A stretch of DNA of 39,604 bases, taken from a virus. The stretch lies in the IMG/VR virus record IMGVR_UViG_3300008261_000110, positions 1-39,604 of that record; one strand, 5' to 3'. This document shows, piece after piece, positions 1 through 21,300 of the stretch. Positions within the stretch are counted from its first letter, which is position 1, and the number at the start of each line of letters is the position of its first letter. Position numbers and translations under genes: made by a program. Below the pieces are notes generated by a model. That model had not been told where the DNA came from. It did not search any database and saw nothing but the letters and a program-made list of their open reading frames with translations.

Positions 1-21
1 AGGGTTGCACCAAGGTGTCAA
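1..21 (-). promoter_or_regulatory. Partial sigma70 promoter P0 pointing out of the left edge
   Basis: On the minus strand a perfect TTGACA (16-21) is followed by a spacer containing TGCAACCCT, which matches the spacer of the complete promoter at 1502-1530. The window ends before the -10 box. The TGA inside TTGACA is the stop codon of the gene ending at 18, the same arrangement seen at 1527, 2220 and 3925. The promoter array therefore appears to continue beyond the window. Confidence 0.6.
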
Positions 22-437
22 GGTGTGCGGGTGCTGTTAATGATTCTGGTGGTGTCTCGGAGGGTTTCTTTCTCGTTGCCTGTCACCCTATTCGTCCAGA
101 CTCGTTTGAAGTACGAATCCCAGCGTGTTCGGTTAAGGTGGGAAACATTAGTGGTTAAACCCCAATAGGTGACAATATCCGCCAATTGGATGCGATAGCC
201 ATTGCCGTCCTTGTCCCAATAGTGGTCGTGCTTCTCATGCAAATCCATGAGATTGATGCGTCTGGAAATTTCCGACAGTTTTGCGTCAGTCATTTCTCCG
301 TCCATGTCATGCTGGAGAAGCATGGAATAGAAGACGAGGCTCTGGGCTCTTGGATGCCAATGAAGGGAGCCATCGGGCTTGGTGTACTCAATCAAATCCC
401 TGTCGATGTTTTCGGGAAATTGGAAGTCAAGACTCAT
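18..437 (-). CDS. Hypothetical early protein, 139 aa
   Basis: I recognise no family. The protein is soluble, has mixed charge, and is rich in His, Asp and Trp, with no membrane segment or obvious motif. The start at 437 follows a C/A-rich leader (repeats of CCACA ending CACCACCATG) with no Shine-Dalgarno, as in its neighbours. A sigma70 promoter at 489-517 drives it; the leader is longer than usual, about 52 nt from the -10 box to the ATG. By position it is an early accessory, possibly anti-host gene, which is inference only. Confidence 0.75.
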   Translation of the reverse strand: MSLDFQFPENIDRDLIEYTKPDGSLHWHPRAQSLVFYSMLLQHDMDGEMTDAKLSEISRRINLMDLHEKHDHYWDKDGNGYRIQLADIVTYWGLTTNVSHLNRTRWDSYFKRVWTNRVTGNEKETLRDTTRIINSTRTP

Positions 438-488
438 GGTGGTGGTGTGGTGTGGTGTGGTTTGGGTGGGTGTCGTTATGACTCTGAT

Positions 489-517
489 AATTTAGCCAAT
501 GTGCAGGGTGGTGTCAA
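489..517 (-). promoter_or_regulatory. Sigma70 promoter P1
   Basis: Minus strand: TTGACA (512-517), 17-bp spacer containing CCTGCACAT, and -10 TAAATT (489-494). It drives the 139-aa gene starting at 437. The TAA stop of the 107-aa gene (492-494) lies inside the -10 box, so the promoter is embedded in the end of the preceding gene. Confidence 0.75.
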
Positions 518-815
518 GGCGGGTGGCTTTCCATTCTTGAAACTCTTTCTTGGTGATTCTGCTGACTTTGTGACTGTGGAAGGAGTAGCCACGCAAATCC
601 CACCATTTACCCGAATGTATGGTGTTTAAATCGGTTTTGATTCCCTTTAAGGCACAAATATCTTCGATAAAATAACGAGCAGTCATGCGTTTTCCGCTTT
701 TGCTCTTATCCCAAAGATACTTGCAGGTTGTCGGATAAACTTCCGTTCCCTGTGGGATGGTGGTGGTGCTTCCGTCATAGTGACGATAAACATGGGTGTA
801 GTTAAGGACGAACAT
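492..815 (-). CDS. Hypothetical early protein, 107 aa
   Basis: No family recognised. It is a basic, aromatic-rich small protein (many Tyr, Trp, Lys and His) without membrane segments. A short segment (RMTARYFIEDICALKGIK) could form helices. Promoter P2 (836-864) lies 21 nt upstream of the ATG, and the leader ends AACCCACCACCATG without a Shine-Dalgarno. The stop codon falls inside the next promoter's -10 box. Its own promoter makes it a genuine gene; the role is unknown. Confidence 0.75.
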   Translation of the reverse strand: MFVLNYTHVYRHYDGSTTTIPQGTEVYPTTCKYLWDKSKSGKRMTARYFIEDICALKGIKTDLNTIHSGKWWDLRGYSFHSHKVSRITKKEFQEWKATRLDTTLHIG

Positions 816-835
816 GGTGGTGGGTTGATGTGATT

Positions 836-864
836 ACTATGCCACAGGTGCAGAGTGATGTCAA
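836..864 (-). promoter_or_regulatory. Sigma70 promoter P2
   Basis: Minus strand: TTGACA (859-864), 17-bp spacer containing CTGCACCTG, and -10 CATAGT (836-841). It drives the 107-aa gene at 815. It sits in the short gap after the ArdA-like gene. Confidence 0.75.
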
Positions 865-870
865 TGGGTG

Positions 871-1224
871 TTAGATATTTTGGAAGACATGACAGTCATG
901 AATCCAATAATCACCACCCAGCACCAAATCCCGCCCGAATAATTCATAGTCGAAATAATTGCGGAGGTTTTCGGGCATTTCTCCAAGCATATCGCATTCG
1001 TCTACCAAATGCTCCGCAAATCGGGTCATGTTGTCGAATTCGCCTTGATAAGCCTCTTCAACATCGCTCAAGGTGGATACATCGGGCTCCTTGATTCCTT
1101 GGTTGTAGCACCAAATGTAGACCACCCGCTGGTGGGCTCCTACAGAGAGGAATGTGTTGTTTTCATCACTCTCCAAGAGGGCGGTGATTTTGTCGTTGAG
1201 GATGTGTTCGGGTGTTTTGTCCAT
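871..1224 (-). CDS. ArdA-like antirestriction protein (short), 117 aa
   Basis: ArdA proteins are acidic DNA mimics that occupy the DNA site of type I restriction-modification enzymes. Residues about 57-117 match the C-terminal part of the family: EEAYQGEFDN, then FAEHLVDEC, the signature NYFDYELFGRDL, then GGDYWIHDCHVFQNI, close to the usual FDYEAFARDL...GHVFRN ending. The protein is strongly acidic. ArdA is usually about 165-170 aa, so the first domain is missing or replaced by a short N-terminus (residues 1-45). The family assignment is from motif recall. Whether a short form still inhibits type I enzymes cannot be judged here. Its own promoter P3 (1248-1276) and a short C/A-rich leader precede it. 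Confidence 0.8.
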   Translation of the reverse strand: MDKTPEHILNDKITALLESDENNTFLSVGAHQRVVYIWCYNQGIKEPDVSTLSDVEEAYQGEFDNMTRFAEHLVDECDMLGEMPENLRNYFDYELFGRDLVLGGDYWIHDCHVFQNI

Positions 1225-1247
1225 GTGAGTAGTGGGTTGAGGTGAAC

Positions 1248-1276
1248 AGTATCGTCTATGTGCAGGGGATTGTCAA
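1248..1276 (-). promoter_or_regulatory. Sigma70 promoter P3
   Basis: Minus strand: TTGACA (1271-1276), 17-bp spacer ending CCTGCACATAGAC, and -10 GATACT (1248-1253). The -10 box is 24 nt from the ATG of the ArdA-like gene. The spacer and leader are nearly identical to those of P5. Confidence 0.85.
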
Positions 1277-1280
1277 TGGG

Positions 1281-1478
1281 TCAGTCCGCAACGCTCACAG
1301 AGATTTCAATGCTATCGAAAGAATTATCCCGAATGTCCTGCTCGATTGTGTCGAGTGGCTTCATGCTAGACAATGCAATCCCTAATGCGGACGCAACTTT
1401 GTCCTGTGCGTCATTCTTGGATTCTGCGTAAACCTCGACTTTGATAATCAAAGTTTCTTGGTATTGGTATTTAATCAT
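1281..1478 (-). CDS. Hypothetical early protein, 65 aa
   Basis: No family recognised. It begins with a likely beta strand (YQETLIIKVEVYAES), followed by a helix (KNDAQDKVASALG) and a second strand near the C-terminus (SIEISVSV). This gives a compact alpha/beta protein of strongly acidic character with no signal or membrane segment. The start at 1478 lies 24 nt from the -10 box of P4, behind a CAACCCACTACTACCATG leader. Confidence 0.75.
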   Translation of the reverse strand: MIKYQYQETLIIKVEVYAESKNDAQDKVASALGIALSSMKPLDTIEQDIRDNSFDSIEISVSVAD

Positions 1479-1501
1479 GGTAGTAGTGGGTTGAGGTGAA
1501 C

Positions 1502-1530
1502 AGTATCGCAGGGTTGCAGAGATATGTCAA
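1502..1530 (-). promoter_or_regulatory. Sigma70 promoter P4
   Basis: Minus strand: TTGACA (1525-1530), 17-bp spacer containing CTGCAACCCTGC, and -10 GATACT (1502-1507). The TGA stop of the 214-aa gene (1527-1529) lies inside the -35 hexamer. It drives the 65-aa gene. Confidence 0.85.
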
Positions 1531-2171
1531 GAGGCTGGGTTGGTGTGCTTGATGCTCATGGCTACGGAAGAAAGCGAATTATGGATTTTGCACCCCATAA
1601 GCATCATCTCCGCATATATGCTGGCAATACAGGTGTCAGTCGTTCCCATTGCAGACCAATTGATTCCGCTGGTAGACCATTTGAAACCTTCACGCACATA
1701 TATATCCAAATCGATTTCACGGAGGTTTCCTTCATCGTAATACGAGAAAGAAAGGTGTGCGGATATGTCGATACGCTCATCTCCGAATTTGATTTTATGC
1801 GGGTTGATGGTGAGGCGAATCACATACTTTTCCTTCATCATTTTCTGATGCTGGGTGTTGTTGTAGTCGTATGGGGTAATGGGAGAAAGATTGATTAAAC
1901 CACGCTCAAGGAGATAAGGATGAGATGGGAAGAATACATGAATGTATTCGCCATTTTCAATTTGTTTGCGGAATTTCTCGCCAACATTATTGGGAGTAGA
2001 TTCGATGTACTCGCCAAACCCCCTGTAATATACATTGCTGTACTTGTTTTCATTGTTCAGCAGGTGGTTGATTTCAATCAAACGCTCGCCCATCTTGGCA
2101 TCTTGTTGGGTATCAAGAATATCCATGATGGTCTGGCGTTCTGCTTTCAGTTGTTCGATGTCGTTGCTCAT
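1527..2171 (-). CDS. Hypothetical early protein, 214 aa
   Basis: This is the largest gene wholly within the promoter array and I do not recognise it. Residues 1-40 look like a helical hairpin or coiled coil (DIEQLKAERQTIMDILD...). The rest is a mixed alpha/beta domain with several likely strands (YVIRLTINPHKIKFG, DISAHLSFSYYDE, EIDLDIYVREGF). No catalytic motif, membrane segment or signal is evident. Promoter P5 lies 24 nt upstream of the ATG. The stop codon is shared with the -35 box of P4. Confidence 0.8.
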   Translation of the reverse strand: MSNDIEQLKAERQTIMDILDTQQDAKMGERLIEINHLLNNENKYSNVYYRGFGEYIESTPNNVGEKFRKQIENGEYIHVFFPSHPYLLERGLINLSPITPYDYNNTQHQKMMKEKYVIRLTINPHKIKFGDERIDISAHLSFSYYDEGNLREIDLDIYVREGFKWSTSGINWSAMGTTDTCIASIYAEMMLMGCKIHNSLSSVAMSIKHTNPAS

Positions 2172-2194
2172 GTGGTGGATGGGTGAAGGTGAAC

Positions 2195-2223
2195 AGTATC
2201 GTCTATGTGCAGGGAATTGTCAA
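2195..2223 (-). promoter_or_regulatory. Sigma70 promoter P5
   Basis: Minus strand: TTGACA (2218-2223), 17-bp spacer containing CCTGCACATAGAC, and -10 GATACT (2195-2200). The TGA stop of the 82-aa gene (2220-2222) is inside the -35 box. It drives the 214-aa gene. Confidence 0.85.
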
Positions 2224-2468
2224 GCGTCTCGCTCATCGATTACTTCTTGAACCACCTGCGAGAGCATTTCATGGTAGTGGTCAAGGAAAGACTCATGCAT
2301 ACGCTCCCAGATGTCATTTTTCTCGTCCTGCGTAAGCGGATTATCGCCAGCATCGTCAGCAAAGATTTCCAAATCTTCATCAACTAACATGAAAACGCAC
2401 ATATTTGCATCACGCTGAATCTTGTGGATGGCATCCACAGCATCGCTTTGTTTCTTGGTGTTGCTCAT
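2220..2468 (-). CDS. Hypothetical acidic protein, 82 aa
   Basis: No family recognised. The protein is strongly acidic (for example VDEDLEIFADDAGDN) with a helical C-terminus rich in Glu and His (DIWERMHESFLDHYHEMLSQ). It starts 2 nt after the stop of the 109-aa gene and has no promoter of its own, so it is the second gene of a two-gene unit driven by P6. Acidic small phage proteins are sometimes DNA mimics; nothing here proves that. Confidence 0.75.
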   Translation of the reverse strand: MSNTKKQSDAVDAIHKIQRDANMCVFMLVDEDLEIFADDAGDNPLTQDEKNDIWERMHESFLDHYHEMLSQVVQEVIDERDA

Positions 2469-2470
2469 GG

Positions 2471-2800
2471 TTAGGACAGGCGAGAGTCTACGCCATTGGC
2501 GTTGTAGCCATATGCGTTGAGGATGTCGCAGACATAATGCGACAGGTCATAGCAACCATCATAGTCGAAACAATTGCCTTGCAGGTCAAAGGAAAGGGTT
2601 CCTTCTCCGTAGCAGGAGCAATCATCGCTACAAATCTCCCATGCTCCGCTGATGTACCTTGCGTCAGCGTCATGGGTGAAGACGATTACCTTTGCGGTGA
2701 ATCCTTCAGTCTTGGTTTGGTCTGCCCCATTCGCATAGGTCATGCGAACAGGTTTGGTGAAGTGTTGCTTCACTTCTAATTTGATTTCTCGTTTGCTCAT
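2471..2800 (-). CDS. Hypothetical Cys-rich protein, 109 aa
   Basis: No family recognised. A likely beta-rich N-terminus (IKLEVKQHF, FTAKVIVFTHD) is followed by a Cys-rich stretch with five Cys between about residues 57 and 83 (CSDDCSCYGEG, then NCFDYDGC) and one more near 90. This could bind metal or be an acidic surface. It is the first gene of the P6 unit and is followed 2 nt later by the 82-aa gene. Confidence 0.75.
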   Translation of the reverse strand: MSKREIKLEVKQHFTKPVRMTYANGADQTKTEGFTAKVIVFTHDADARYISGAWEICSDDCSCYGEGTLSFDLQGNCFDYDGCYDLSHYVCDILNAYGYNANGVDSRLS

Positions 2801-2823
2801 GTGGTGGATGGGTTGAGATTGAT

Positions 2824-2852
2824 ACTATAGGTTATCTGCTATTTCTTGTCAA
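2824..2852 (-). promoter_or_regulatory. Sigma70 promoter P6
   Basis: Minus strand: TTGACA (2847-2852), 17-bp spacer, and -10 TATAGT (2824-2829). The spacer differs from the others (AAATAGCAGATAACC), but the box spacing and the 24-nt distance to the ATG at 2800 are kept. The -35 half lies within the 3' end of the 122-aa gene. Confidence 0.8.
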
Positions 2853-3207
2853 CCTCGTCTGGGGTGTTCATTGCGTTCATCGCAATATTGATTTCGATGG
2901 TGGACTCCTCATGCAGTTTTGCATGGGAAACCTCAAACTGCCAATCTGGGAACAAGGCTTCTTCTTTGGACATGACAACCTTATGGATGGTAAAGGTGAA
3001 TTTAGCGTAATGGTTTACCTGTTCGGTAATAAAAGCCAATGCTTTTACAGCGGAACTGAAGTAATTGATGTATACGGAATCTGCAAAACGACTTTTCCAA
3101 GCAATGATGTACTTGTAGGTCTTTTTGGAATCCCGAACAATATCCCAATGTGGGTTGTTCTTGGTTTCTTCTGGGACGATGATTTGGTTATTGGGTTCGA
3201 TGCTCAT
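2839..3207 (-). CDS. Hypothetical early protein, 122 aa
   Basis: No family recognised. A likely alpha/beta core is visible: YKYIIAWKSRFADSVYINYFSS, then a helix (AVKALAFITEQVNHY), then two strands (KFTFTIHKVVMS, TIEINIAMNAM). The arrangement is reminiscent of small ferredoxin-like folds, which is inference from pattern only. Promoter P7 lies 20 nt upstream of the ATG. Its 3' end carries the -35 box of P6. Confidence 0.75.
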   Translation of the reverse strand: MSIEPNNQIIVPEETKNNPHWDIVRDSKKTYKYIIAWKSRFADSVYINYFSSAVKALAFITEQVNHYAKFTFTIHKVVMSKEEALFPDWQFEVSHAKLHEESTIEINIAMNAMNTPDEVDKK

Positions 3208-3226
3208 GGGTGGGTGATAGGATTAT

Positions 3227-3255
3227 GTTATATGCTATGTGCGGGAATTTGTCAA
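3227..3255 (-). promoter_or_regulatory. Sigma70 promoter P7
   Basis: Minus strand: TTGACA (3250-3255), 17-bp spacer containing CCCGCACATAGCA, and -10 TATAAC (3227-3232). It drives the 122-aa gene, and the leader ends ATCACCCACCCATG. Confidence 0.85.
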
Positions 3256-3270
3256 TGGGTGGATGTGAGA

Positions 3271-3567
3271 TTATTCGTCATTGTCCTCGACAGGGAGGTC
3301 AGAGAGATAGGCGATGGCTTTGTCTTCATATTCGCTTGCGATACGCTTAAGCAAATCTTTGTCTTTGATTTCGACACCGCTATCATCGTCAATGGATTCG
3401 ATTTCGTAATCTTCCAAGTCCCAACAGTAATTGTGGTCTGTGCCTTCAGAGCCCCAATATTCATAGGAGCCGATGCCATCGTCAATCACGACAGCCGAAA
3501 GCATTCCGTAGACTGTGTAGGATTTGCCATCAACGATGACTGTGGTGGTGTAGGATAAGTCTTGCAT
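3271..3567 (-). CDS. Hypothetical very acidic protein, 98 aa
   Basis: No family recognised. The N-terminus forms likely strands (YTTTVIVDGKSYTVYG), and the rest is extremely acidic (EDYEIESIDDDSGVEIKDKD, ending EDNDE). Charge and size fit a possible DNA-mimic anti-defence protein, but I see no diagnostic motif. It has no promoter directly upstream. The leader runs into the tRNA gene, so it is probably transcribed from P8 together with the 69-aa gene and the tRNA. The ATG again follows a CCACACCACCACC-type leader. Confidence 0.75.
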   Translation of the reverse strand: MQDLSYTTTVIVDGKSYTVYGMLSAVVIDDGIGSYEYWGSEGTDHNYCWDLEDYEIESIDDDSGVEIKDKDLLKRIASEYEDKAIAYLSDLPVEDNDE

Positions 3568-3588
3568 GGTGGTGGTGTGGGAAGAAGT

Positions 3589-3660
3589 TGACCCATCTAG
3601 GAATCGAACCTAGATTCTCTGCTTAGAAGGCAGATGTTCTATCCGTTGAACTAATGGGTC
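3589..3660 (-). tRNA. tRNA-Arg (anticodon UCU)
   Basis: On the minus strand a full cloverleaf folds: acceptor GACCCAT/ATGGGTC (7 perfect pairs), D stem GTTC/GAAC, anticodon stem TCTGC/GCAGA with loop CTTCTAA (anticodon TCT), and T stem CTAGG/CCTAG with loop TTCGATT. The discriminator is A and no CCA is encoded. It reads AGA, and AGG by wobble. It lies between two small protein genes in the P8 unit, so it must be cut out of that transcript. Confidence 0.95.
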
Positions 3661-3667
3661 AATGTAA

Positions 3668-3877
3668 TTAGTAGTTGCCGAAAACGAAACCTGCAATGCT
3701 TGCGTCAAGACGCTTGCACTTGCCGTTGGGGGTTTCGATTGCTTGACGCAACTTCTTGTTCATGTAACGCTCAAAAGCGTCAATGAACTCTGGCTTGGCT
3801 TGCTTACCGCTGGCACGAATGATGTTTCGCACCTGCTTTACGCAAATGATGGAGGACTTTCTGGTGGTTTTCTTCAT
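3668..3877 (-). CDS. Small basic protein, possible single histone fold, 69 aa
   Basis: A strongly basic 69-aa protein. The layout short helix (VKQVRNIIRASG, about 13-24), long helix (PEFIDAFERYMNKKLRQAIE, about 29-48), then a loop with NGKCKRLDAS and a short final helix resembles the helix-strand-helix of histone-fold proteins, including the Lys/Arg-rich second loop. This is pattern similarity only. It could instead be an unrelated small DNA- or RNA-binding protein. It is the first gene of the P8 unit, followed by the tRNA. Confidence 0.7.
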   Translation of the reverse strand: MKKTTRKSSIICVKQVRNIIRASGKQAKPEFIDAFERYMNKKLRQAIETPNGKCKRLDASIAGFVFGNY

Positions 3878-3899
3878 GGTAGTATGGGAGAAGGATTAT

Positions 3900-3928
3900 G
3901 TTATAGCACAAGTGCATGAACCTGTCAA
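3900..3928 (-). promoter_or_regulatory. Sigma70 promoter P8
   Basis: Minus strand: TTGACA (3923-3928), 17-bp spacer containing ATGCACTTGTGC, and -10 TATAAC (3900-3905), 23 nt from the ATG at 3877. The TGA stop of the preceding gene (3925-3927) lies in the -35 box. It should drive the 69-aa gene, the tRNA and the 98-aa gene. Confidence 0.85.
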
Positions 3929-4236
3929 GCCTTGCGGAGGTAAGTCCGCTTCTCATGCTCGTTCACGCACGACTGCACATCGATTTCGATTCTCTGCCAA
4001 TGCGTTCTGTAGGCTCTGCGGGTATTCGCCCAGCCAGTCTTTTCCTTGGGGAAACCAATGGATGGGTCTTTGGCAAGACCAATGAGCGTATCGAGCAAAT
4101 CAGTAGCGTTGTCGTTGGTGAACGCTTCAACGGCTTGCTGATAGGTGATTGCGTGGCTATAGAACTTAGTGGCGAAAGAGACGAATCTATTCATCTCTCT
4201 CTTGTTTCGGAACGGCAGGTATTGGGTTTTGCTCAT
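3925..4236 (-). CDS. Hypothetical protein, 103 aa
   Basis: No family recognised. It is mainly helical and basic at the C-terminus (WANTRRAYRTHWQRIEIDV). I chose the ATG at 4236. An in-frame TTG at 4260, preceded by GGAGGAGAAA, is an alternative that adds 8 residues. Either start overlaps the end of the 178-aa HTH gene (stop at 4187), so the two genes are translated from one message in different frames. The stop codon is part of promoter P8. Confidence 0.7.
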   Translation of the reverse strand: MSKTQYLPFRNKREMNRFVSFATKFYSHAITYQQAVEAFTNDNATDLLDTLIGLAKDPSIGFPKEKTGWANTRRAYRTHWQRIEIDVQSCVNEHEKRTYLRKA

Positions 4237-4723
4237 GGGAGTTCTCGTCCAAGTTGACAATTTCTCCTCCCGATGTCAAGGGCGTATCAGAAATTATTTC
4301 CGCATTCAACAGAATGTTGTTTATCTCATCGTGCGTGATTCTCATGCGATGCTCAACGACAGCGGTGGGTTGGTCGTTCAGAACATTTATCTTGTCGATG
4401 AGAATACCCAATGAAACTGGCATTGCGGTGATGGGTATGTCATCAATCTCATCGCTCAATCTGCTGGCTCCTCTGCTCACGACATTACGCAGTTTCTCCA
4501 CGACTTCTTTCTTCCAGCCCTTCTCGTCCAACGCTGGCATGGACTTTCTGATTCCGACTACTGTGTGTGCGGACACGCCAGTCTCCGCTTGAATCTTACG
4601 CTGTGACGCACCATCGGCAATCATCTGCTTAATCTTGTTCTGCAACTCTTCTGGCAAACGCTCACCTGTGTGGTTCTGCGTTTGGTCGTTGCTAATTATT
4701 TCTTGTTTTGACTTGAACTCCAT
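4187..4723 (-). CDS. Helix-turn-helix DNA-binding protein, 178 aa (regulator or small terminase-like)
   Basis: The N-terminal third holds a Hin/resolvase-like HTH: PEELQNKIKQMIADGASQRK, then IQAETGVSAHTVVGIRKS (about 24-61). A helical region follows (WKKEVVEKLRNVVSRGASRL), then MPVSLGILIDKINVLNDQPT and VEHR. I have seen this HTH plus 'GILIDK...PT..VEHR' layout in phage proteins annotated either as regulators or as small-terminase-like, and cannot decide between them. I chose the ATG at 4723; an upstream in-frame ATG at 4762 would add 13 residues but would run through the inverted repeat at 4742-4771. The gene sits at the divergent junction, which favours a regulatory role. Confidence 0.75.
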   Translation of the reverse strand: MEFKSKQEIISNDQTQNHTGERLPEELQNKIKQMIADGASQRKIQAETGVSAHTVVGIRKSMPALDEKGWKKEVVEKLRNVVSRGASRLSDEIDDIPITAMPVSLGILIDKINVLNDQPTAVVEHRMRITHDEINNILLNAEIISDTPLTSGGEIVNLDENSHEQNPIPAVPKQERDE

Positions 4724-4733
4724 GCGGAAATGT

Positions 4734-4739
4734 AGTATA
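4734..4739 (-). promoter_or_regulatory. Candidate -10 element for the HTH gene
   Basis: TATACT on the minus strand lies 10 nt upstream of the ATG at 4723 and directly beside the inverted repeat. No good -35 box stands at the right distance; the spot 17 nt upstream reads ATGGGT, inside the repeat's spacer. A transcript from here would be nearly leaderless. Weakly supported. Confidence 0.35.
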
Positions 4740-4741
4740 AG

Positions 4742-4771
4742 AATCGACATATTGCAACCCATATGTCGATT
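4742..4771. promoter_or_regulatory. Operator-like 11-bp inverted repeat in the divergent control region
   Basis: AATCGACATAT (4742-4752), an 8-nt spacer TGCAACCC, then ATATGTCGATT (4761-4771) form a perfect 11-bp inverted repeat. There is no T-run after it, so it is not a terminator. It lies between the HTH gene (minus) and the RusA gene (plus) and adjoins a TATACT element. A dimeric regulator, possibly the adjacent HTH protein, is the simplest reader. The rest of the gap (4772-4853) is T-rich with only weak promoter-like matches for the plus strand. Confidence 0.65.
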
Positions 4772-4853
4772 ATCACCGCATCTGCCCTGTTCTTTGTATT
4801 CATTTTTCTCCCAATTCTTATCTTTAACTTATTAAACAGAAAAGACTAATACT

Positions 4854-5279
4854 ATGCTTTCTTTCACAATATACATAGAGCCTTCCCCTACCCAACAGGG
4901 GTCGTTGCGTATCCTCAAGAACAAGGCTGGGAGGATGTTTGTCGGCAAGATGTCCTCCAGCAAGGCTTCCAAATGGAAGAAGGAGTTCGTCTTGAAGGCA
5001 AAGGCTCACGCTCCCGCACAGCCATATGATTTCGCCATCGAGATTGAGATTGGCTTTGAGTATCCATTCTTGAAGAAACACAAGGACGAGGATTTGGATG
5101 GCATCATCGCAAAGACCACCAGACCAGACTTGGACAATCTTGAGAAGATGGTGCTGGACGGATTGGTTGAGGCTGGCATACTCAAGGATGACGCATTGGT
5201 ATGCACCAAGCGTAGTCACAAATTTTTCTCCAACGCAGGTCCGAGAATCACCATTGACATTTCTCGTTGCACATGGTAA
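4854..5279 (+). CDS. RusA-family Holliday junction resolvase, 141 aa
   Basis: RusA-type endonucleases cut four-way junctions as homodimers. The family's acidic core is visible: RPDLDNLEKMVLDGL (residues 90-104, Asp92 and Asp94) and GILKDDALV (Asp113). The 21-residue gap from Asp92 to Asp113 equals that between catalytic Asp70 and Asp91 of E. coli RusA. Length is normal for the family. It opens the plus-strand module, next to a RecE-like exonuclease, so it probably resolves recombination or replication intermediates before packaging. The ATG follows a weak, non-Shine-Dalgarno leader. Confidence 0.9.
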   Translation: MLSFTIYIEPSPTQQGSLRILKNKAGRMFVGKMSSSKASKWKKEFVLKAKAHAPAQPYDFAIEIEIGFEYPFLKKHKDEDLDGIIAKTTRPDLDNLEKMVLDGLVEAGILKDDALVCTKRSHKFFSNAGPRITIDISRCTW

Positions 5280-5298
5280 TCTACCTTTCCTAACCCAC

Positions 5299-6096
5299 AT
5301 GAGTAAAATCACCAAAATCGTCAAAGACATGCCAGATGAAGCCTATCGTGCTGAAGTCGGCATCAGTCAATCCTCCCTCAAGCCGATGTTCGTATCGCCA
5401 GAGCATTACAAGCACCAGTTCTCCGTAGAACGAGAAGTGACTCCAGCGATGTTGCTTGGCACGACCACTCACCTTGCCTGTTTCCAGCCCAACCTGCTTG
5501 ATTCGCTCGTAGCCGTGTCGCAGAAATTCGACATGCGTAAGACGGCTGACAAGATTGCGTCTGAAGAATTCCAACGCAACAACGCTGGCAAGATTATCGT
5601 CAACGAAAAGGATTTCGGTCTGGCTACCAGCATGGCAGACAAGGTTCGTATGCACCCGATGTTCCTTGAGATGTGTTCTTCTGGGGATGCTGAAGTTTCC
5701 GTCTTCTCCAACGAACTTCCATATGAAGACATTGTGTTGAAGGGTCGCATGGATTGGGTCAACTGGGAGAAGAAAATCATCGTTGACCTCAAGACCACCA
5801 ATGCCTGTCTTGCGGATATGTTCTCCGTTAAGAATGTGATTTACGACAACTATTACCACATGCAAGCGGCTATGTACCTCATGCTCCTTGAGCATAACAA
5901 CCTTTCTGGCTTTAGGTTTGTTTTCGTCATGGTGGAGAAGGAGGCTCCTCATGGTGTGCGTTGTTTCGAGATTTCGGAACAGAGTCTCAAGAAAGCAAGA
6001 GAGCGTTTGATGCTTGCCATCGAGAACATTCAGCATTGCATTTCGTTTGACAACTGGGCTGGCTACGACACCAAGAGCACCATCATTGACATTTAA
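5299..6096 (+). CDS. RecE-like PD-(D/E)XK exonuclease, 265 aa
   Basis: It resembles the C-terminal nuclease domain of RecE and related phage exonucleases, which resect double-stranded ends to make 3' tails for an annealing protein. Visible motifs: LGTTTHLA (His58), Glu132 in AEVSVF, KGRMDWV (Asp152), IIVDLKTT (Asp163 and Lys165, the core D-X-K) and YYHMQAAMYLML (Gln189). The start at 5299 gives a 19-nt gap after RusA; a longer upstream extension would overlap RusA. The probable partner is the ERF annealing protein at 7652. Function inferred from motifs. Confidence 0.87.
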   Translation: MSKITKIVKDMPDEAYRAEVGISQSSLKPMFVSPEHYKHQFSVEREVTPAMLLGTTTHLACFQPNLLDSLVAVSQKFDMRKTADKIASEEFQRNNAGKIIVNEKDFGLATSMADKVRMHPMFLEMCSSGDAEVSVFSNELPYEDIVLKGRMDWVNWEKKIIVDLKTTNACLADMFSVKNVIYDNYYHMQAAMYLMLLEHNNLSGFRFVFVMVEKEAPHGVRCFEISEQSLKKARERLMLAIENIQHCISFDNWAGYDTKSTIIDI

Positions 6097-6103
6097 TCTA
6101 CGC

Positions 6104-6799
6104 ATGAAACCAAAACCCACAGACACCACCACCGCAGAGAAGATGACCTTTGGGGGGATTTACATCCCCAGAGAGGTCTTCAACTCTGACATCAGCCCTA
6201 TGGCTAAACTCCTGTATGGCGTTATCCAATGCCTTGACGGAAACAATGGATGCTATGCTTCCAATGCTTACTTGGCAGATGTATGCAACATCTCCGAGTC
6301 TACTGTCAAAGACCACATCTCTGCCCTTGTTGACGCAAAGTTCGTCTACAGGCGTGAGGCTGACAACGGCTACAGAATCTTGACCACATTCTCTTCCCTT
6401 GGTCTTTCCAAGCCTGTGCCTAGGGAAGCCGAAAAATCGGCTACCCACAGCCAGAAAATCGGCTACCCCCCAGCCGAAAAATCGGCTACTAATATACAAG
6501 ATATTAATACTGAGAAGAGACAAGATACAGGAACGGACTATATCGTGTATCCTCATGGAGGTGAATTTAGGAAGACATGGGATACTTGGATGACCTACCG
6601 CAAGGAGCGTAAGAAGCCCATGACCACCCGAACCATCAACATGCAGTTGGAAGAACTCAAGCGAATGACTGAACAACAGGCAATCGCCACCATCAACCAG
6701 TCCATCAAGAACGGCTGGGTGGGTCTGTTTGCCTTGCAGGGGCAGTTTAAGACCTCCAGCCATGTAACCACCAAGGCTCAACACAAGAATGGCTTCTAA
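6104..6799 (+). CDS. Replication initiator, O-like winged-helix protein, 231 aa
   Basis: Residues about 12-90 form a winged-helix domain (SPMAKLLYGVIQCLD, then NAYLADVCNISESTVKDHIS) typical of phage replication initiators. Residues about 103-135 are a linker encoded by three near-identical DNA repeats. The C-terminal part (FRKTWDTWMTYRKERKK...) resembles the region in such proteins that contacts the helicase loader. The gene overlaps the DnaC-like gene by 11 nt, the classic O-P pairing of lambdoid phages. Iterons within the coding sequence mirror lambda's origin in gene O. I infer that it binds those repeats to start replication. Confidence 0.82.
   Translation: MKPKPTDTTTAEKMTFGGIYIPREVFNSDISPMAKLLYGVIQCLDGNNGCYASNAYLADVCNISESTVKDHISALVDAKFVYRREADNGYRILTTFSSLGLSKPVPREAEKSATHSQKIGYPPAEKSATNIQDINTEKRQDTGTDYIVYPHGGEFRKTWDTWMTYRKERKKPMTTRTINMQLEELKRMTEQQAIATINQSIKNGWVGLFALQGQFKTSSHVTTKAQHKNGF
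6427..6489 (+). repeat. Three iterons inside the initiator gene (candidate origin)
   Basis: Three 18-bp direct repeats at 6427-6444, 6449-6466 and 6472-6489 start 22 and 23 bp apart, about two helix turns. Consensus AGCCGAAAAATCGGCTAC; the middle copy reads AGCCAGAAAATCGGCTAC. The outer copies are themselves inverted repeats (AGCCGA/TCGGCT). An AT-rich stretch (6490-6514, TAATATACAAGATATTAATA) follows at once, the usual arrangement of an iteron origin and its unwinding element. The repeats are translated as a KSAT-type linker. Confidence 0.8.
6490..6514. other. AT-rich candidate DNA-unwinding element
   Basis: An almost pure A/T block directly downstream of the third iteron, inside the initiator gene. 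The local G+C content is far below the flanking sequence. By analogy with lambda and plasmid iteron origins, this is where strand opening would begin. Inference. Confidence 0.55.
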
Positions 6800-7605: not shown

Positions 7606-7634
7606 TTGACGGATGAGGAAAAAGATGGTACATT
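7606..7634 (+). promoter_or_regulatory. Sigma70 promoter for the ERF operon
   Basis: TTGACG (7606-7611), 17-bp spacer, TACATT (7629-7634), immediately after the terminator. Transcription would begin near 7641, which excludes the in-frame ATGs at 7613 and 7625 and favours ATG 7652 as the ERF start. Confidence 0.7.
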
Positions 7635-7651
7635 GCTTGCCAATCAATCCT

Positions 7652-8407
7652 ATGGAAAATCCCGACTCCCCCACTCCTCAGAAGGCTGAACTTCACAAGT
7701 CCATCATCCTTGCCTTGGCTGAAACCAAGGACATAGTTGCCAATGACTATAACCCTTTCCACAAGTCGAAGTTCGCCAACCTGTCCACGCACTTGTCCAC
7801 GCTGAAGCCAATCTTTGCCAAGTACAATCTTGCCATTGTTCAGTTCCCGACCACGAACACCTTCCAAGATTCTGGCTCCATTGGTGTCAAGACGCTTATC
7901 ATTCACGCCAATGGAGAGTCGCTTGAATCCTCCATCTGCGTACCTGTTGACAGCGAAACCTCTGGTCAACAAGCAGGTGCTTTAATCACTTATTTGAGAA
8001 GGTACGCATTGGCTTGCGTTGCAGGTGTCGCTACGGATGATGACGATGCAGAGGCTGACCGAGTTGTTAAGTCTGCCCCCAAGGGAGTTAAGACTGTTCC
8101 TTCTGCCGCCACCTACGCCATGCCCAAGGCTTCCTATCAGCCTGTTACTGCTCCCCAAGTGACTGAAGGTGTACAAGATAGTATTGACCCTAGTATCCCT
8201 GTTCCGTTTGGCAACAACAAGGGTACTGCTATTGGCGAACTGGGTCTTAATGACTTGGCTTACTGGGCTACCAAGTGGGAACCTCGTCCTTACGAGAAGA
8301 CTGGTAAGGTGACTGCCAAGGATGCCAAGTTGAAGGCAACTGCCGTGGCTCTCTACCAGAACGCACAGGGTGGCTCGCAGGAGAACTCTGAAGATGTTCC
8401 CTTCTAA
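7652..8407 (+). CDS. erf: ERF-family single-strand annealing protein, 251 aa
   Basis: ERF proteins anneal complementary single strands in phage recombination and genome circularisation. The N-terminal ~140 residues carry the family layout: helix KSIILALAETK, then NPFHKSKFANLSTHLSTLKP, the core strand GVKTLIIHANGESLES, and SGQQAGALITYLRRYAL with an acidic tail (ATDDDDAEA). The C-terminal part is variable with a conserved-looking tail (IPVPFGNNKGTAIGELGLND). The start at 7652 is chosen because the promoter overlaps the upstream ATGs. It pairs functionally with the RecE-like exonuclease. The next gene starts within its stop codon (TAATG). Confidence 0.9.
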   Translation: MENPDSPTPQKAELHKSIILALAETKDIVANDYNPFHKSKFANLSTHLSTLKPIFAKYNLAIVQFPTTNTFQDSGSIGVKTLIIHANGESLESSICVPVDSETSGQQAGALITYLRRYALACVAGVATDDDDAEADRVVKSAPKGVKTVPSAATYAMPKASYQPVTAPQVTEGVQDSIDPSIPVPFGNNKGTAIGELGLNDLAYWATKWEPRPYEKTGKVTAKDAKLKATAVALYQNAQGGSQENSEDVPF

Positions 8408-12049: not shown

Positions 12050-12339
12050 TCATTATAAGTCTTAATCTTATTTCTAATCTGATGAAAGAGTTCCTGTGCA
12101 AATGTACCAGACACAGCACAGATAACGCTTTTATAGAATGGGTCTATAGACAACTGATGCAGGGCGAAATAGCAAATTACGCCAACTATTGACCCTGCGA
12201 TTATCATCCTAATCCATTTGATGGTATTGTACTTCTCATCCGTCAAGATAAGCCTAGCCAAGGCTCCAAGACCTCCAAGGACGGCAAACAGCCACCCCGC
12301 TTTCTTGAACTCTTGAATCAAATCGCTCATGTCGTTCAT
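12046..12339 (-). CDS. Holin, 97 aa
   Basis: Small membrane protein with a charged N-terminus, a first membrane segment (AGWLFAVLGGLGALARLIL, about 14-32), a short charged turn (TDEKYN), a second segment (IRMIIAGSIVGVICYFAL, about 43-60), a weaker third (SVICAVSGTFAQ) and a basic tail. The layout matches LydA/HP1-type phage holins, which form the inner-membrane hole that starts lysis. The gene starts in an ATGA overlap with the giant gene and overlaps the spanin-like gene. No endolysin gene is adjacent. Confidence 0.8.
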   Translation of the reverse strand: MNDMSDLIQEFKKAGWLFAVLGGLGALARLILTDEKYNTIKWIRMIIAGSIVGVICYFALHQLSIDPFYKSVICAVSGTFAQELFHQIRNKIKTYNE

Positions 12340-15300
12340 CGTCTGATTCCATTCTTATGAATGTCCCTAAGGATATCATCCATGCAGGATTCGGCATTGT
12401 CTCTGACCGAGATTGAACCCTTCATAGGATTGAACAGTCTGAACTTACCCTTAAACTTTAGGATTTCATAGCCAAGTTGATTTCTGTATCTGCTGGCTTG
12501 TTCTCTCGTCTGTTGTTCAAGTCCCTTGACAACAACATCGTCAATAGCCTTGAAGACTGTGGCTTGGTCTATGACTGCAAGCGGAAGGCTTCTTTGCGTG
12601 GTAGTCGCTTGAGGCAGAAGACCAGCGATTCTGACAGGCTGGGCAGTAACCTCTCTGACTACCTGCGGACTGGGGAGCATGACGAGCAATGGCTCAAGCG
12701 TAACAGGGTCAATGTGGATTGGCGTTATGCCTTGGTCACGCATTGACAAGAGCATCCGAATCATGGCGTTGTCCTTGATTTCCTTCATTCTAGCCGCATC
12801 CGAGTAGGCAGGATTCTTTCTGGCAAGAACCACAAGTGGGTTCTCGACAGGAATTCTGTTTTCAGCGAATGACCAACTACGCTCAAGTTCGATTCTGCGG
12901 ATGAGAATCTGTGCTTGATGGATGTCGTTCACATATGCGAGAAGACGCTTGTCGTACTGTATGCCAGTAATGGGGGACTTGTAATTGTTCTGGGTGATGA
13001 CATACTTCTTGCCCTTACGCTCAACCGAGAACCTGCCATCGGCTGTGCTTGCCAAATCCTTGGTTCCCTTCAGCGTAAGATTGTCATCTCTGTTGAGTGA
13101 GTCGATGATGAGTTGAGCAAGTTCTGGGTCTTTCATCATGCTGATGAAGCCCTTACCAAGAGCCTTGGCTTGCTTCTCGATGAACTCATTGTCCGACATG
13201 ACAGTCGTGGGCTTGTCAGCATTCTGAGCGTTCTGAACTTCCCATGCGTCAGCGGTAGGCTGGACAGGCTTGGGCTCTGGCGTTGCAGGGATTACAGGCG
13301 TTACTGGTGTCGCTTCAGCAGTTGCAACAACAGGTACAACCGCTTCTGGCTGTGGCTGTTCAATCGGAGGTTTAGGAATATTGACATTTGGTGCTGGCTT
13401 GGGTTGGCGTTTTGGCTTGGTGGTTCTCACACCAGCAGGGACGGAAGAAGCCTCTACACGCCTCGTAGGGGCGGGTCTAGGTGCTGGTGCTGGTGTTGCT
13501 ACAGGTTCGACAGTAGGAACGACTGTAGGCTCAACAGGAGTGGCTTGTGCTTGCGGTGCTGGCTTGTTCTCAGCGTCTCTTGGTGCAAGTCTAGCCCACT
13601 TCTGCTTGTCAAACTTCTTGTCTAGCCCTTGAAGCACCAACTCAAGGCTGGCGTTTCTGCTCGATTGAAGGAATCGCTCACCCGATTGGAAGGTGCTGGG
13701 GAACAACATCTGGACAGGCTGACCAGAGTTATCCTTAGCCATGTAGGTCTTGGTGGTGGGGTCATACTCGATGTTGTACAGGTAGTACCTAGCCTTCTTG
13801 GTCTTATCCAGTTGGCTCTGCACTATCTCAAGTTCGCTTCTGCCTCCAGCAACAGGAGCCGTAGTAGCCGTTGCAGGTTGGGCTGGCTTTGACACCATCG
13901 CAGGAGAATCAGCCCTTGCTTGGGCAACAACTGGCTGTTGCTTGGGCTTTTCTGGCATGCCACCAAGAAGACTGTCGATGAACTCAGCCGCCTCATAGGG
14001 GAACATGGCATGCTTTGTGTTCGTTGTGACCTTCTCGCCAGTAATCTTGTCGATGTAAGCGACAGGCATATTTACGCTCTTGCCAGCGGGGTCCATCATC
14101 TTGTAACCACCATTAGCCCTGTCGTATATTATCTTGTAACCACGATAGTCTGCGACACCATCCTTTGCCAGCCGTTGGTCAAGGTCTGTTCCATATGAGT
14201 CGGTAACGATACCTCTGTTGCCAACTTCTGGGATTTCGGAACCAGCCTCACGCTCACCAATGGTTCTGTCCTTCTTGACAGGGGCTGTGACAGGAACAGG
14301 AGTGCTTGATGATTCGCCTCTGATATCTCCAACAGTTTCTGGCGTTGTTTCTCCAGCCGTAGCCTTCTTCTTTCTTCTAGCCGCAGGTTGCCACATCGGT
14401 TGACCCTCCTTAATGGCATCCATCTGAGGAGTTATGTCAAGGATTAGACCTCTTGCTGAAGCAGATTTTGTTATCTTGCTTCCAGTATTTACAAGTTGTT
14501 TTCCGTCATCCGAAAGACCAATCCCAGATTGCTCCATCGGGAGAGTTCCTTGAACTTTGTTAATGAAATAATCTACTACGGATTTTGCATCTTCATAAGA
14601 TATGAGTGCTCTTGAACGAGTTCTTTCGACAAGTTCAATGTAATTTTCTCTTTGTAAATCAACATTATCTCTAAATCTCAAATGTTGTGAGGCGGTGGCT
14701 TCAAACGATTTTACTGTTGCTTCTAAATTCACATTTCCGTCATACTTTCTGAACACATCTAGTGTGCGGTTTAATGTTTCAACAAACTTCATATCTCCAG
14801 AAATTGCCAGTTGAGATTTGTTTTGTCTCAACTTGCCACCAAACTTCTTAGCATAACCATTTATTACCTTTGGATATATAGTTCCGTAGAAGTATTGCGA
14901 CTCACCGCCTGTTATTTTCTGAGGAAGTTCTGCGGGTATAAGTATGATTCCTTCATAGCCGTTATCAACAGCCTCCTTCAGAATCTTTTTGAACATGAGT
15001 TTCGTGAAGTCCTCTGTTCTTAGGAATGGCATGTATTCTGGAACAACAGTATCACGCTGTGTTGCAATATCTTTTATTAATTTTGACCTTAATTCTGACT
15101 TTTTTGGAGAATTCGTATCAAACGACCTTTCAAAAATGTCCATGCCATCAATGGTCATGTGCAAAACCTTTTCTCTGAACTGCTGATACGCACGACTGTT
15201 CTTATCTTTCATCGCATAATCAATCCATTCATCCCATATTTTTGCGATTTCATTACCTTGTAAGGCTGGAGTTACGCTAATGTCACCTAGGTATTCATCA

Positions 15301-18300
15301 ATGGCATTGTCAATCATTGAGTAGAGATTTCTCTTACTGAAATCTTCAGTCTTAAATACTCCAACCCAGTTGCCCCACTTTGCGTGGTCTGAATCAAACA
15401 GGTTTTTGAAAACCATCTTTGATATCTCTTCATGCAGTATTCTTCCTATTCTTGTTATGTTTTTGTCTTGAGGAGGTGTGTTTCCATACTGTGTAGCATG
15501 GTTATCCGCTACGCCTAAGAAATATGAAAGGTCGTAATATGGAAGCCTTGACTTGTCGTAGTTGAAAAGTGACACCTTAGCAAAGTTAACGACTTGGCTA
15601 AGTTCATCTCCAGTAATGTTATCATTCTTTAATACATTATCTTTTATTCCTCTTAATATGTCTCTTACTGTTTCAGCCGCCAATTTTGTTCCAGTATTGA
15701 TGGAGTCAGATGCAATCATTCTATCAACCAGAACAACAAAGTTTTCGACAAACTTTTCTTTTCCTCCAACAATCTTGTCATCGATTATTCCAGTCTGAAC
15801 ATCAAGATTAAGCCTTTCTCTTACTTCAGTTGTTCCTTCATAGAAGCCGTCATCAATAAGGTCTGTTCTTTCAAGATTCTTTTCTTTTGATTTCTTCCAA
15901 TTTTCCCAAACCTCAGAAACACGAAGTCCGCTTTCAATCGCTTGCTTGACTTCTGGAATCCTTAAAAAGTCCTTTTCAGACATGACAGTTGCTTCTCTCT
16001 TTCTTCCAAGTACTGCCCTTTCATCAACTAAAGCGGAACGCTCTTCATAAATGTCAGTCATGGTAGCCCATGCATTATCCATAAACTTTTCTGCCGCACG
16101 AACACCTTCTGGGGAGATTGCAGAAAGACCTATTGAGTCCAAATGACTTTGAACCCTTAGAGGCATTTCTTTATCAATTTCGTCAATTCTTCTGAGAACC
16201 TCTTCAAGTCTTGCTTGTTCCTGCGGAGAACGAACCCTTTCAAGTCTTGCGTCATTTCTGTTCTGCATCTTTTGAGCCGTGTCTGATTGAGACTCAAATA
16301 TAATTAACATCTTTTTCTTATCTTTTCTTGGAGCATCAGCAACGACTTCATCAAAGATGTAAGATTGAAACAACGCTATTGCCTCTTTTATTCCAGTACG
16401 AGCCCTTTCAATAGTTGTTGTTCTTCCGTTAGCCATTGACCCTCTAATATTATTTCCAGTATTTCTTCCACCATCCTTATCCACATATGAATCTGGTATT
16501 GCTAATGCTATGTTTTCAATATCATTAAACATATAGTAATCATATGATTCATCGGTTAATGCAAGTTTGACATCTTCCTCTTTTCTTATGTCAGTAAATT
16601 CAAATGTACCACCTACTTGTCGGTCTGTATTTCTTCTGTAAATGTCATCAACTTTCTTTATTAAGTCAACGGCTTTATCCCTTGGCAATGCTTTCCTAAG
16701 TCTATGAAGAGCGAAACCTAAATCTTCAAGCATTTTTGAAGATGGAATATATCCATCGATTTCATAGTTTCTGCCAACATCATTGTTGACCATTTGCGTC
16801 AGAATAGCCTCTGGTGACATAGACTTAAATGCGTCAATGTCATTGACTTTTATTCTGTTTAAGAATCTGTTGGTCGTTCTTTCAAATTGTCCAATGTCAG
16901 CATCTGGGCGTAACCTTTCCTCTTGCGTAAGCATTCTGCTGGCAATGCCTTGTGATTTTCCAGATGCTGGTTCTGGAGAAGGAAGTTCAGTTACTCTATC
17001 GAGATATATATCTCCAACTCTGGCAAATGCTATGATGTTTTCATGGTCTTTGAAATGACCTCCTTCGCCACCGCTATAGTCTGTTCCTTGTGGTGCTCTG
17101 AGGATAAGCACTCTGTAATTTGTGGTTGGATGGAAATCGTCATACCCCCTGTTTGCAGGTGTAAACCCTTCATACCCACCCTCAATCTGTGATTGGACCA
17201 ACGGACTATTAGGGTCAAGACCTTGCAATGTATACCAAGCCGTGTTGGTAATGTCTTCCTGCAACTCAAACTTGTGAGCCTTAATGTAATCAAGCAAAGC
17301 CTGTTTATTGACTTTTGCTTTGGTTCCACCATTAGCCTTCTTTTGGTCTTCAACCCATCCAGCAATGTCAAGGAATTCAAGTTCTGATTTAACAATCCCA
17401 GTACCCTTTGTTGGGTCAAGCAATCCCATCAATTCATTGAGAGATGTCTTGTCGGTAACTTTTTCCTCAACAAACTTTTCAACTGCTGAGTAGAATGTAC
17501 GCTTAACATTAGCCGCATCTTGTCTAAGCGGGGCTTCTCCAACGCCAATACCAATTCCTCTAGGAACAGGACGCTCATTGGTCACATCGTTATCAATGAC
17601 TGCGATATTGTCATTAGCGAATTCCTTGAACACGACTATCTGATTGTGTAAGATAGGCTCACCAGTAGCCAGCGAGATGTCATCCGCAATGTTCGTGAGA
17701 ACAAGCGAGTCATGTCCGTCTGCCTTTGCCTTAACAATCAAATTATTGACTCCAAGATTCTTGTCATCATAACGCATTTGTTTAGCGTCAATGACAAGTG
17801 GATTGTTGGTCTTGACCAAGGCTCTGGTAAGGTAGTCTCTGTTCTTTCTGAAGTATTGACCTACCTCAACATGGGATGCCCACCATGACGATTCTCCCTG
17901 CGACAGTCTTCTAGCCTTAGGGTCAAACGCACCTTCCATAGCAACTACCTGCGAGTCCGTAGCATGGACGGCAGGGAATACGGCAGGGCTACCAGTATTG
18001 AATTGCTTGTTGTATTCGGCAAGAGACATGCCTTGAGCCTGTGCCTCGTCAGCCATCTGTCTGATGACCGCAGTATGCCGTGGCATACCACCAAGGAAGT
18101 TATCCTTGATTGAGGAAGCATTGAATATGTCACCTTCAGCAACGGCTTGGTTATAGTTAGACTCAAGAGCCTTAGCCTGTTCAGCGTTTTGGGCTCCATA
18201 TCTGGAAGCCTTCTGCTTGAACATCGAGATGTTCTGGGGGCTGTACTCCCCATTGTTCTGAATCAAGTTCTTGACCTGCTTGCCAGAGAATGCAATGTAA

Positions 18301-21300
18301 GACCAAGAATTACCCTCGACAGAGTTTCTGTATCTGATGCCGTCAACACCTTTGCTCTCAAGCCACTTGTGCAATGGCGTAGATGCGGTAAACTGACGCT
18401 TTGACATTGCGTCAAACTTGGCACTAACGCCTCCGCTTGCCAGCATTTCGGTTTGAGCAAGAAACGCAGAGGTAGTGTTTACCTTATTGGCAATCAAGTC
18501 GGACTTGTAGTTGTTAAGGAAGTCCAAGTCCTTCTGTGTAAGAGGACCGATAGCATCCTTTATGCCTTCAAAGATATGCTTGTCCCAAGCACTTTCAACT
18601 CTGGGCTGTCCAGAGAATTTGCCGTCCTTTTGAAGACCAAAATTTCTTCTTTCTGAAGGAGAAGCATAAGAATAGAGGATGGTTTCGACAATATCGTCTG
18701 GGGACCAAGCACCTCTATCAACCAAGGTGATAGGCTTCTTCATCCGAACAACAAGAGGAATCACATTGTCGGCAACCTTCAATGGGTTTGTTCTCGTTCC
18801 AGTTGATACCTTTAATGCACGATACAGAGATGCTTCTCTGGTTCCGAAATGAAGACCGACTTGTCCCTGTTCAATGAACTCAAAAGGCTTGTCTGCATTA
18901 GTCCAATGCCAGAACACAAGTGCTGAATTGGTTGCTTCATCGTGACCAATGCCACCCTTCACAAAGTCAAGAACAGCCTGTTGCTTCTCTGGTGATTGCT
19001 TGTATTGGTTGCTTGCGATAGCCCTAATCACATCGTTAGGTGTGTAACCCTTCTCACGCATAGCCCAATCGCCTGTAGGTCTGATAGTTGAGAATATCTG
19101 CTTTGCCCTACCGCCTTGCAGTTCTTGCGAGACATAGACCATGTTGGCAGGAAGGTCATCGCCATTTCTGGGAACCTTTCTTGCGGCTGGCTGGTACATC
19201 TCTTGAGCCCTGTAGTATGCTCTTTCTGCATAGGGGACTCTCATTGAGTCTGCCGTTCCAAGAACCTGCTTGATGCCGTCTGCTCTCATGGCGGTCCAAG
19301 GAATGTCCTTTCCGTTCTTTCCTTTTCCGTATGAACGCAGTTGATAGTGATGCCAGTCAATCTCTGGGATGTCAAACTCAGCCTCGTCTCCGTCAATGAG
19401 TCCAAGCATTTTCTTGGATGGGAACGCACCAATAGCCGCACAAGCAAGACGCTTCTTTGCCTTGCCTTCAGCACCGCCACCAAAGAATCGGTTGCCACCA
19501 ATGGCTGACTTCATCGAATAGTTCTCTATCAGACGATATACATCCTTTTCAAAATCGTTATATGTGCTCCATCTCTTGGCGGTTTCCTTTTCGTTCTTCC
19601 ACATCCATTGGATTCTACGCTGTAGGACATCGATATCCACTCCGTGAAGCAGGAAGTGGGCATGTGGAGTCTTGTAATCAAACTTACCAGTATTGATGTT
19701 ACGGAGAGTTGCTCTCAGTTCCATGCCGTAAAAGACCATGCTCTTTTCAGTAGCGACCCACTTATCCTTTGACCGCTTCATCTTAACACCGCTTACATCG
19801 TCAACATGCTCAAATCCAGCATACTTGACTCTAGCCACATTGGGGCTACCAAGACCTCCATCAAGAATCAGAGGAGCAATCTGGGCGATGGCTTCAATCT
19901 CTCTCTTGGGCAAATGCTTCTGAAGAATCTTGAAAGCCTCTACAGTAGGAACACCGCTGAAGACAATAGTACCTTTCTTTGCAGTTGCCACCAAATCGTC
20001 AATGTCACCTGTACGAGGTCTTCCACGCCTTCCAAAATCCTTATTCTTGACCAACTGCTCAAGTTCTTCCTTGGTAGGCATAGTGCCTCTTCTTTGAGCG
20101 TCAGTAATGTCATCGACATTGGTTCTGTAAGTTCTCCAAGCCTCTTGCTTCAAGGCTCCTGTGTTGTTTTCTTCATCAAGACTGCCGACACTTGGAGTAT
20201 CCTTTTCAACTGCATAGATATGCATTCCAGTATCGACTCCACTCTTCTCTAGTTCAATCAAGTCAAGAGCCGCCGCTTGGTATCTTCTGGTTTGCTCTGC
20301 GTTGATGACTTCTTCTGGCTTCTTCACATAGTTGCCAGTTCTCTGGTCAACATCGTACAGGTCTTGCAGGTCGTTTTCCTCGACAAATTGCCTCTGCATT
20401 GCAGGAGACATCGATGCAACATCAACAGTATATCCGTCAAGATTAGCCTTTCTGTTCTTGTGAACCTCCAAGAATTGCTTGAAGAGTTTACGCATGTATG
20501 GGTCAACGATAGCCTTGCCATCCTTGTCCTTGAACCAGTCCACAAACGGCTTATTGAAGTCTGCAACAAAGCCAGCCTGTCTGCCGTTTCTGTCGATGAT
20601 TCTTGCGAATCTATGCTTCAATTCATCGATGATGTTTCTGGCAAAACCCAAGTCACCAGCAAGATAGATGTAGTCAAACGGAACATCGTTCTCATGGGCA
20701 TCCCAGATTGACTCACCCATCTCCTCGATAAGAACAGCCAAGTCTTGACCCCTAAGTTCTCCAGTCTTTTCAAAATGGTCAATTGCCGAGTAGATGTTTT
20801 CGACAGTTTGAGGCGAATGCGTTGACTGAGTTCTTCCAGCATTTGGCTTTGGAGCCTGTTGCGGAGGATTGGTATCCGTTCTTTCTCCAGCAACATTGGG
20901 AGGGGGAGTCCCCTGTTGAGTTGCGGTAGCCTTAGGTGTAGGAGCACTTGACGATTCCGTAGGAATGCTTGTTCCATACAAGCCCTCAATCGTTGCATTG
21001 GGCATGTCTGGATGATACCATCCAAGGTCAGTTGTCGTTGAGTCAATGTTAGTGTTGCTCTTGATGAGTCTTTCATCGTGAACCCATCCATCAGCAAACA
21101 ATCTCTTAACAACTTCTCTAAGTGTCTTTATCCGTTCCTTGCTTACTGTTGAGATATCTCCACCTTGCTTTTCTGCAATCAACTTGAGAAGAGAATCAAT
21201 TCTCTTGTCCAGTTCTACAGCCTCAATCATAGCCCTACCTTGTGCGGTTTCTCCAACCCTAGGTCCAGCAGATGTATTGACCTGTCCTTCAACTGGATTA

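Follow-up and report, generated by a model that had tools for sequence, protein, structure and literature searches.

Predicted sigma70-type promoters with a lineage-specific spacer element in front of small early genes of an uncultured tailed phage

Why should a phage place a copy of one promoter module in front of most of the small genes at one end of its genome, and why should the spacers of these promoters be alike? The question was raised by the left end of an IMG/VR virus fragment, a 39.6-kb record analysed over its whole length of 39,604 nt (hereafter the window). The window encodes head, terminase and replication genes, and its source is an uncultured tailed phage that deposited phages match only remotely (MCP, 25-28%; TerL, at best 31% identity). 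Early genes run leftward from about 4.8 kb, replication genes rightward and late genes leftward. A host search with the MCP in genome contigs gave no match. Naming the host through TerL was rejected, the single match (53%, L147, a 3.2-kb contig in a Verrucomicrobia MAG bin) being too weak. In the late operon, 12336-23702 encodes a 3788-aa protein whose sole match, a weak one, was to a polyvalent-protein ADP-ribosyltransferase domain. At 6422-6489, within the O-like replication initiation gene (6014-6799), a unit of about 22 bp (..CAGCCGAAAAATCGGCTAC) is repeated three times in tandem; the repeats are iteron-like and a possible origin.

The promoter array at the left end

Eight minus-strand sites with an exact TTGACA, a spacer of exactly 17 bp and a -10-like hexamer were all present where a sequence-only reading had placed them, and the ninth that it proposed was present as far as the window reaches. 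The features of the region are as follows.

1-20, minus strand: ninth predicted promoter, truncated by the left edge to its -35 box and some of the spacer (TTGACA-CCTT-GGTGCA-ACCCT, with TGCA at the shared offset)
18-4236, minus strand: eleven small array genes and one tRNA-Arg, mostly without a known family
489-517, minus strand: predicted promoter of 18-437, TTGACA-17-TAAATT
836-864, minus strand: predicted promoter of 492-815, TTGACA-17-CATAGT
1248-1276, minus strand: predicted promoter of 871-1224, TTGACA-17-GATACT; near-identical to 2195-2223
1502-1530, minus strand: predicted promoter of 1281-1478, TTGACA-17-GATACT; stop of 1527-2171 in the -35 box
2195-2223, minus strand: predicted promoter of 1527-2171, TTGACA-17-GATACT; stop of 2220-2468 in the -35 box
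2824-2852, minus strand: predicted promoter of 2471-2800, TTGACA-17-TATAGT
3227-3255, minus strand: predicted promoter of 2839-3207, TTGACA-17-TATAAC
3900-3928, minus strand: predicted promoter of 3668-3877, TTGACA-17-TATAAC; stop of 3925-4236 in the -35 box
4187-4762, minus strand: HTH DNA-binding protein encoded at the divergent switch and conserved among relatives; candidate spacer reader
5254-5282, plus strand: divergent-side copy of the module, ahead of the RecE-like exonuclease gene; G001 and G002 have orthologous copies
5298-6096, plus strand: RecE/exonuclease VIII-like gene, ATG at about 5298

The -10 boxes (GATACT three times, TATAAC twice, TATAGT, CATAGT and TAAATT once each) matched TATAAT at only 4-5 of 6 positions. 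At the left edge the minus strand reads TTGACACCTTGGTGCAACCCT, and the offset of its TGCA was the same as in the other copies. Eight of the 11 small genes had their own module copy, so the proposal of one promoter per small gene held for most of them; 2220-2468, 3271-3567 and 3925-4236 had none, and the plus-strand copy at 5254-5282 had been overlooked. The -10 box was 19-23 nt from the ATG at seven of the eight sites, close to the 20-24 nt first claimed for most; the distance at 489-517 was 51 nt. The array also contains a tRNA-Arg(TCT) gene (3587-3661) and, at 871-1224, a gene for an ArdA-like antirestriction protein.

The minus strand of 1-4000 has nine TTGACA boxes, eight of them in a module, while the plus strand there has none in a module. 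In 2000 dinucleotide-preserving shuffles the number of such sites averaged 0.40 and never exceeded 5. A consensus-only scan was less striking because weak matches are counted (12 sites, shuffle mean 8.6). When the pooled sites were turned into a profile and the whole 39.6-kb record was scanned with it, only the eight sites and 5254-5282 on the plus strand were found, all in the early region. The features of a sigma70-type array (TTGACA and a -10 box 16-18 bp apart, before genes, above chance) were thus found together. The module recurs before small genes in related genomes, which supports the proposal that a strong promoter of the sigma70 type was spread as a repeated unit, with its strength and early timing predicted from the sequence.

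Multi-promoter early regions are already known from T4 and Kayvirus, and the sequence-only reading overstated how far phage early genes depend on a few shared promoters: in Kayvirus vB_SauM-515A1, 58 early promoters of the sigma70 type combine a 17-bp spacer with a TRTGN extension (PMC7698491). Like that phage, with its dozens of early promoters, TnTG-type extension and genome-wide consensus (PMC7698491), the window repeats one sigma70-type pattern. Unlike it, the array has approximately one predicted promoter per gene in 4 kb, a conserved element upstream of TGn and G-free leaders without Shine-Dalgarno sequences. A search of the minus strand of 1-5400 gave no terminator-like site. Transcripts should therefore probably nest, and the "independent" expression suggested for each gene is doubtful.

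Module consensus and its change between lineages

Three relatives with the same module (together with the window, lineage A) carried 8 (G001, 45.2 kb), 9 (G002, 27.6 kb) and 7 copies (G003, 20.5 kb) before small genes, a recurrence that the sequence-only reading had named as support for the array. The pooled module was CC-TTGACA-N4-YYTGCA-..TnTGn-(G/T)ATA(C/A)(T/C), followed by a nearly G-free leader and an ATG without a Shine-Dalgarno sequence. In the logo of 31 sites, information was near 2 bits at TTGACA and was 1.59 and 1.47 bits at the G and C of YYTGCA, whereas the four intervening bases had about 0.1 bit; two C ahead of TTGACA, a T at offset 18 and a TG at 20-21 (extended -10) were also conserved. 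A shared spacer motif had been proposed and is real, but the form first given, CCTGCACATAG, was complete only at 1248 and 2195; a closer description is YYTGCA in a constant position, 8-13 bp upstream of the -10 box, together with an extended -10 (TnTGn). From the estimated start to the ATG, leaders were 55% C and 2% G (median 17 nt). A Shine-Dalgarno-like 4-mer was found upstream of none of 12 early genes and one of 19 late genes. Late leaders were A-rich and early ones C-rich and G-free, with almost no Shine-Dalgarno sequence in the window (1-39604); this scarcity and the leader composition may reflect an unusual host.

Relatives at a greater distance show this promoter architecture but share, within each genome, a different spacer element. 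G006 (lineage B) had 21 array copies of TTGACA-CCCCCCTCCC-N8-TA(A/T)AAC with an 18-bp spacer, a pattern resembled by G012, G008, L135 and L136. G011 (lineage C) had 16 copies of ACCACCCCCC-N8-TAAAAC, with ACCACCCCCC retained although the -35 box was often degenerate. The site consensus thus differs among lineages A, B and C, and the motif register also shifts in the C6-bearing lineages. Homologues of window genes bear the motif of their own lineage; that of 18-437, for example, does so in G006, G012 and G011. An unbiased search recovered the lineage A motif in L123 when restricted to the array side, and in L137 and L136 it recovered the motif with a signal well above that of controls. No clear array motif was found by this search in L126, L128, L129, L133, L140 and L142, where power was limited (over the whole locus, the known L123 motif was missed). 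L085, L087 and L088 matched the lineage A pattern, yet had no array, and scans for close relatives with the exonuclease (5098-6096) and gene 1527-2171 as queries found nothing. A possible fourth motif, nGAAC..TG(A/T)-TCCACT, was seen in three copies each in L141 and L143 with the same leader, TCACCCA.

A trans factor probably reads this lineage-specific element. The sites might instead be ordinary strong sigma70 early promoters whose spacer motif reflects a preference of the host polymerase (an extended -10 plus a host-specific spacer), with lineages differing as their hosts do and no trans factor involved. The core boxes, 17-bp spacer and TnTGn fit the Kayvirus consensus TTGACW-17-TRTGN-TATANT (PMC7698491), and T4 early promoters likewise carry extra consensus regions (PMC2988021). 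However, YYTGCA lies outside the listed sigma70 contacts, which are the -35, TGn and -10 (PMC2988021). Nor does contact by sigma70 alone agree with the retention of the motif in G011 while the -35 box decays, or with the change of motif sequence (and, in C6-bearing lineages, of register) between related phages. We regard this explanation as rather unlikely, though it is the strongest of the alternatives.

Constraint, copying and gene cassettes

Conserved spacers could also be the product of copying: RecE/Erf-type recombination between the repeats would spread the copies and keep them alike, leaving the spacer motif without a function. The phage encodes RecE-like and Erf-like proteins (the latter, an annealing protein, at 7613-8407), and the first ten spacer bases in lineage B were 92% identical within G006. 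The near-identical promoters 2195 and 1248 flank genes (1527-2171 and 1281-1478) without a homologue in G001-G003; at the corresponding joint G001 has only one promoter, its left flank like the window's 2195 copy and its gene matching that of 1248. Copying should, however, equalise all spacer bases, and the bases next to the motif were near random in lineages A and B. Identity over the 17-bp spacer was 0.47 between paralogues, 0.49 between orthologues and 0.45 between other pairs (random expectation, 0.26); paralogues were no closer than orthologues, indicating that the likeness does not come from recent copying. Fixed positions were kept while others drifted, so recent duplication alone is insufficient, and the pattern suggests constraint on the motif. 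Homogenisation with a functionless motif is accordingly improbable.

Recombination may nevertheless have shaped the gene content, with the RecE-like and Erf-like proteins as possible agents. The TGA in the -35 box ended the preceding ORF at 19 of 32 promoters, compared with 6 of 151 other TTGACA boxes used as controls (the count covers ORFs that have an ATG and 40 codons or more, some of which may not be genes). The -35 box thus often doubles as the stop of the preceding gene, so that cassettes would be joined, gained and lost at promoters. Gene order in the four genomes was F0 F1 P F2 F3 P F4 P F5 (F6) P, then variable genes, F7, F10/F11 and F8. Comparison of gene order and joints, in these four genomes only, placed promoters at the boundaries of gene gains and losses, which suggests that the promoters serve as joints of swappable gene cassettes.

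T4-type PeSLs offer a precedent, in that promoter-borne gene shuffling has been proposed for them (Arbiol 2010, Comeau 2014, as cited in PMC4503421). As far as that secondary account describes them (PMC4503421), these mobile regulatory cassettes, like the array, set a promoter between small variable early genes and exchange at regulatory joints. They belong to a different phage family, and the stop codon embedded in the -35 box and the lineage-specific spacer motif are particular to the array; identity with PeSLs was rejected, as the array strand has no stem-loop terminator.

The last alternative, also improbable, is that the motif, TTGACA included, is mainly a repressor-binding site and few copies are working promoters, as with the stoperators of Cluster A mycobacteriophages: those are likewise many, short, asymmetric and mostly in one orientation, with a genome-specific consensus that varies between related phages (PMC6550527), and lineages B and C have a C-rich flank after TTGACA; but most stoperators are not promoter-associated (PMC6550527), whereas each copy in the array comes with a -10-like box at a fixed distance and a start codon close by, making a complete predicted promoter before a gene rather than one of many sites away from promoters, and no integrase was seen among the window proteins searched. 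The per-gene packing and the extra spacer element set the array apart from Kayvirus promoters; one tested feature separates the array from PeSLs and one from stoperators.

A putative regulon and its implications

The reading to which we lean, with modest confidence, is that these are early promoters for the host polymerase that double as cassette joints and carry a lineage-specific spacer element for a trans factor. A host sigma70-type RNA polymerase would transcribe the small genes from many strong promoters soon after entry. Because the promoters are placed singly before early genes, a gene and its promoter would form a compact cassette. The element at a fixed offset (YYTGCA in the window, CCCCCCTCCC or ACCACCCCCC in relatives) would be a putative binding site for a phage or host factor acting on every early promoter at once, for instance in early shut-off; the sign of its effect is our inference.

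A common regulator reading the spacer had been raised as a possibility, and the fixed-position, lineage-specific motifs favour it, with the regulator itself at the stage of a candidate. The nearest candidate is the HTH protein at 4187-4762, which had weak Trp-repressor/HTH matches. Its identity between lineage A and lineages B and C was 37-41%, and binding by it is only putative; the AlphaFold model was poor (mean pLDDT, 52.7). No motif copy was found directly upstream of the HTH gene in the window. Homologues were also present in relatives L126-L133, where the array motif was not found, so the protein is a candidate only. One regulator possibly recognises all promoters of the array. A bolder version, which we put forward tentatively and consider unlikely as a whole, is that a private, lineage-specific "password" in the spacers of the per-gene promoters unites the early genes in one regulon, that a co-evolving phage regulator switches the array (for early shut-off, or to exclude related phages), and that the promoters are also the joints at which cassettes are swapped.

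If a trans factor does read the spacer, comparing motif with regulator across the many members found in metagenomes would give a handle on early-gene control and on competition between phages. The locus is also a clear case, at the level of sequence, of promoters that delimit genes and serve as points of exchange in rapidly changing early regions, and the module offers a practical route to small host-takeover genes of uncultured phages.
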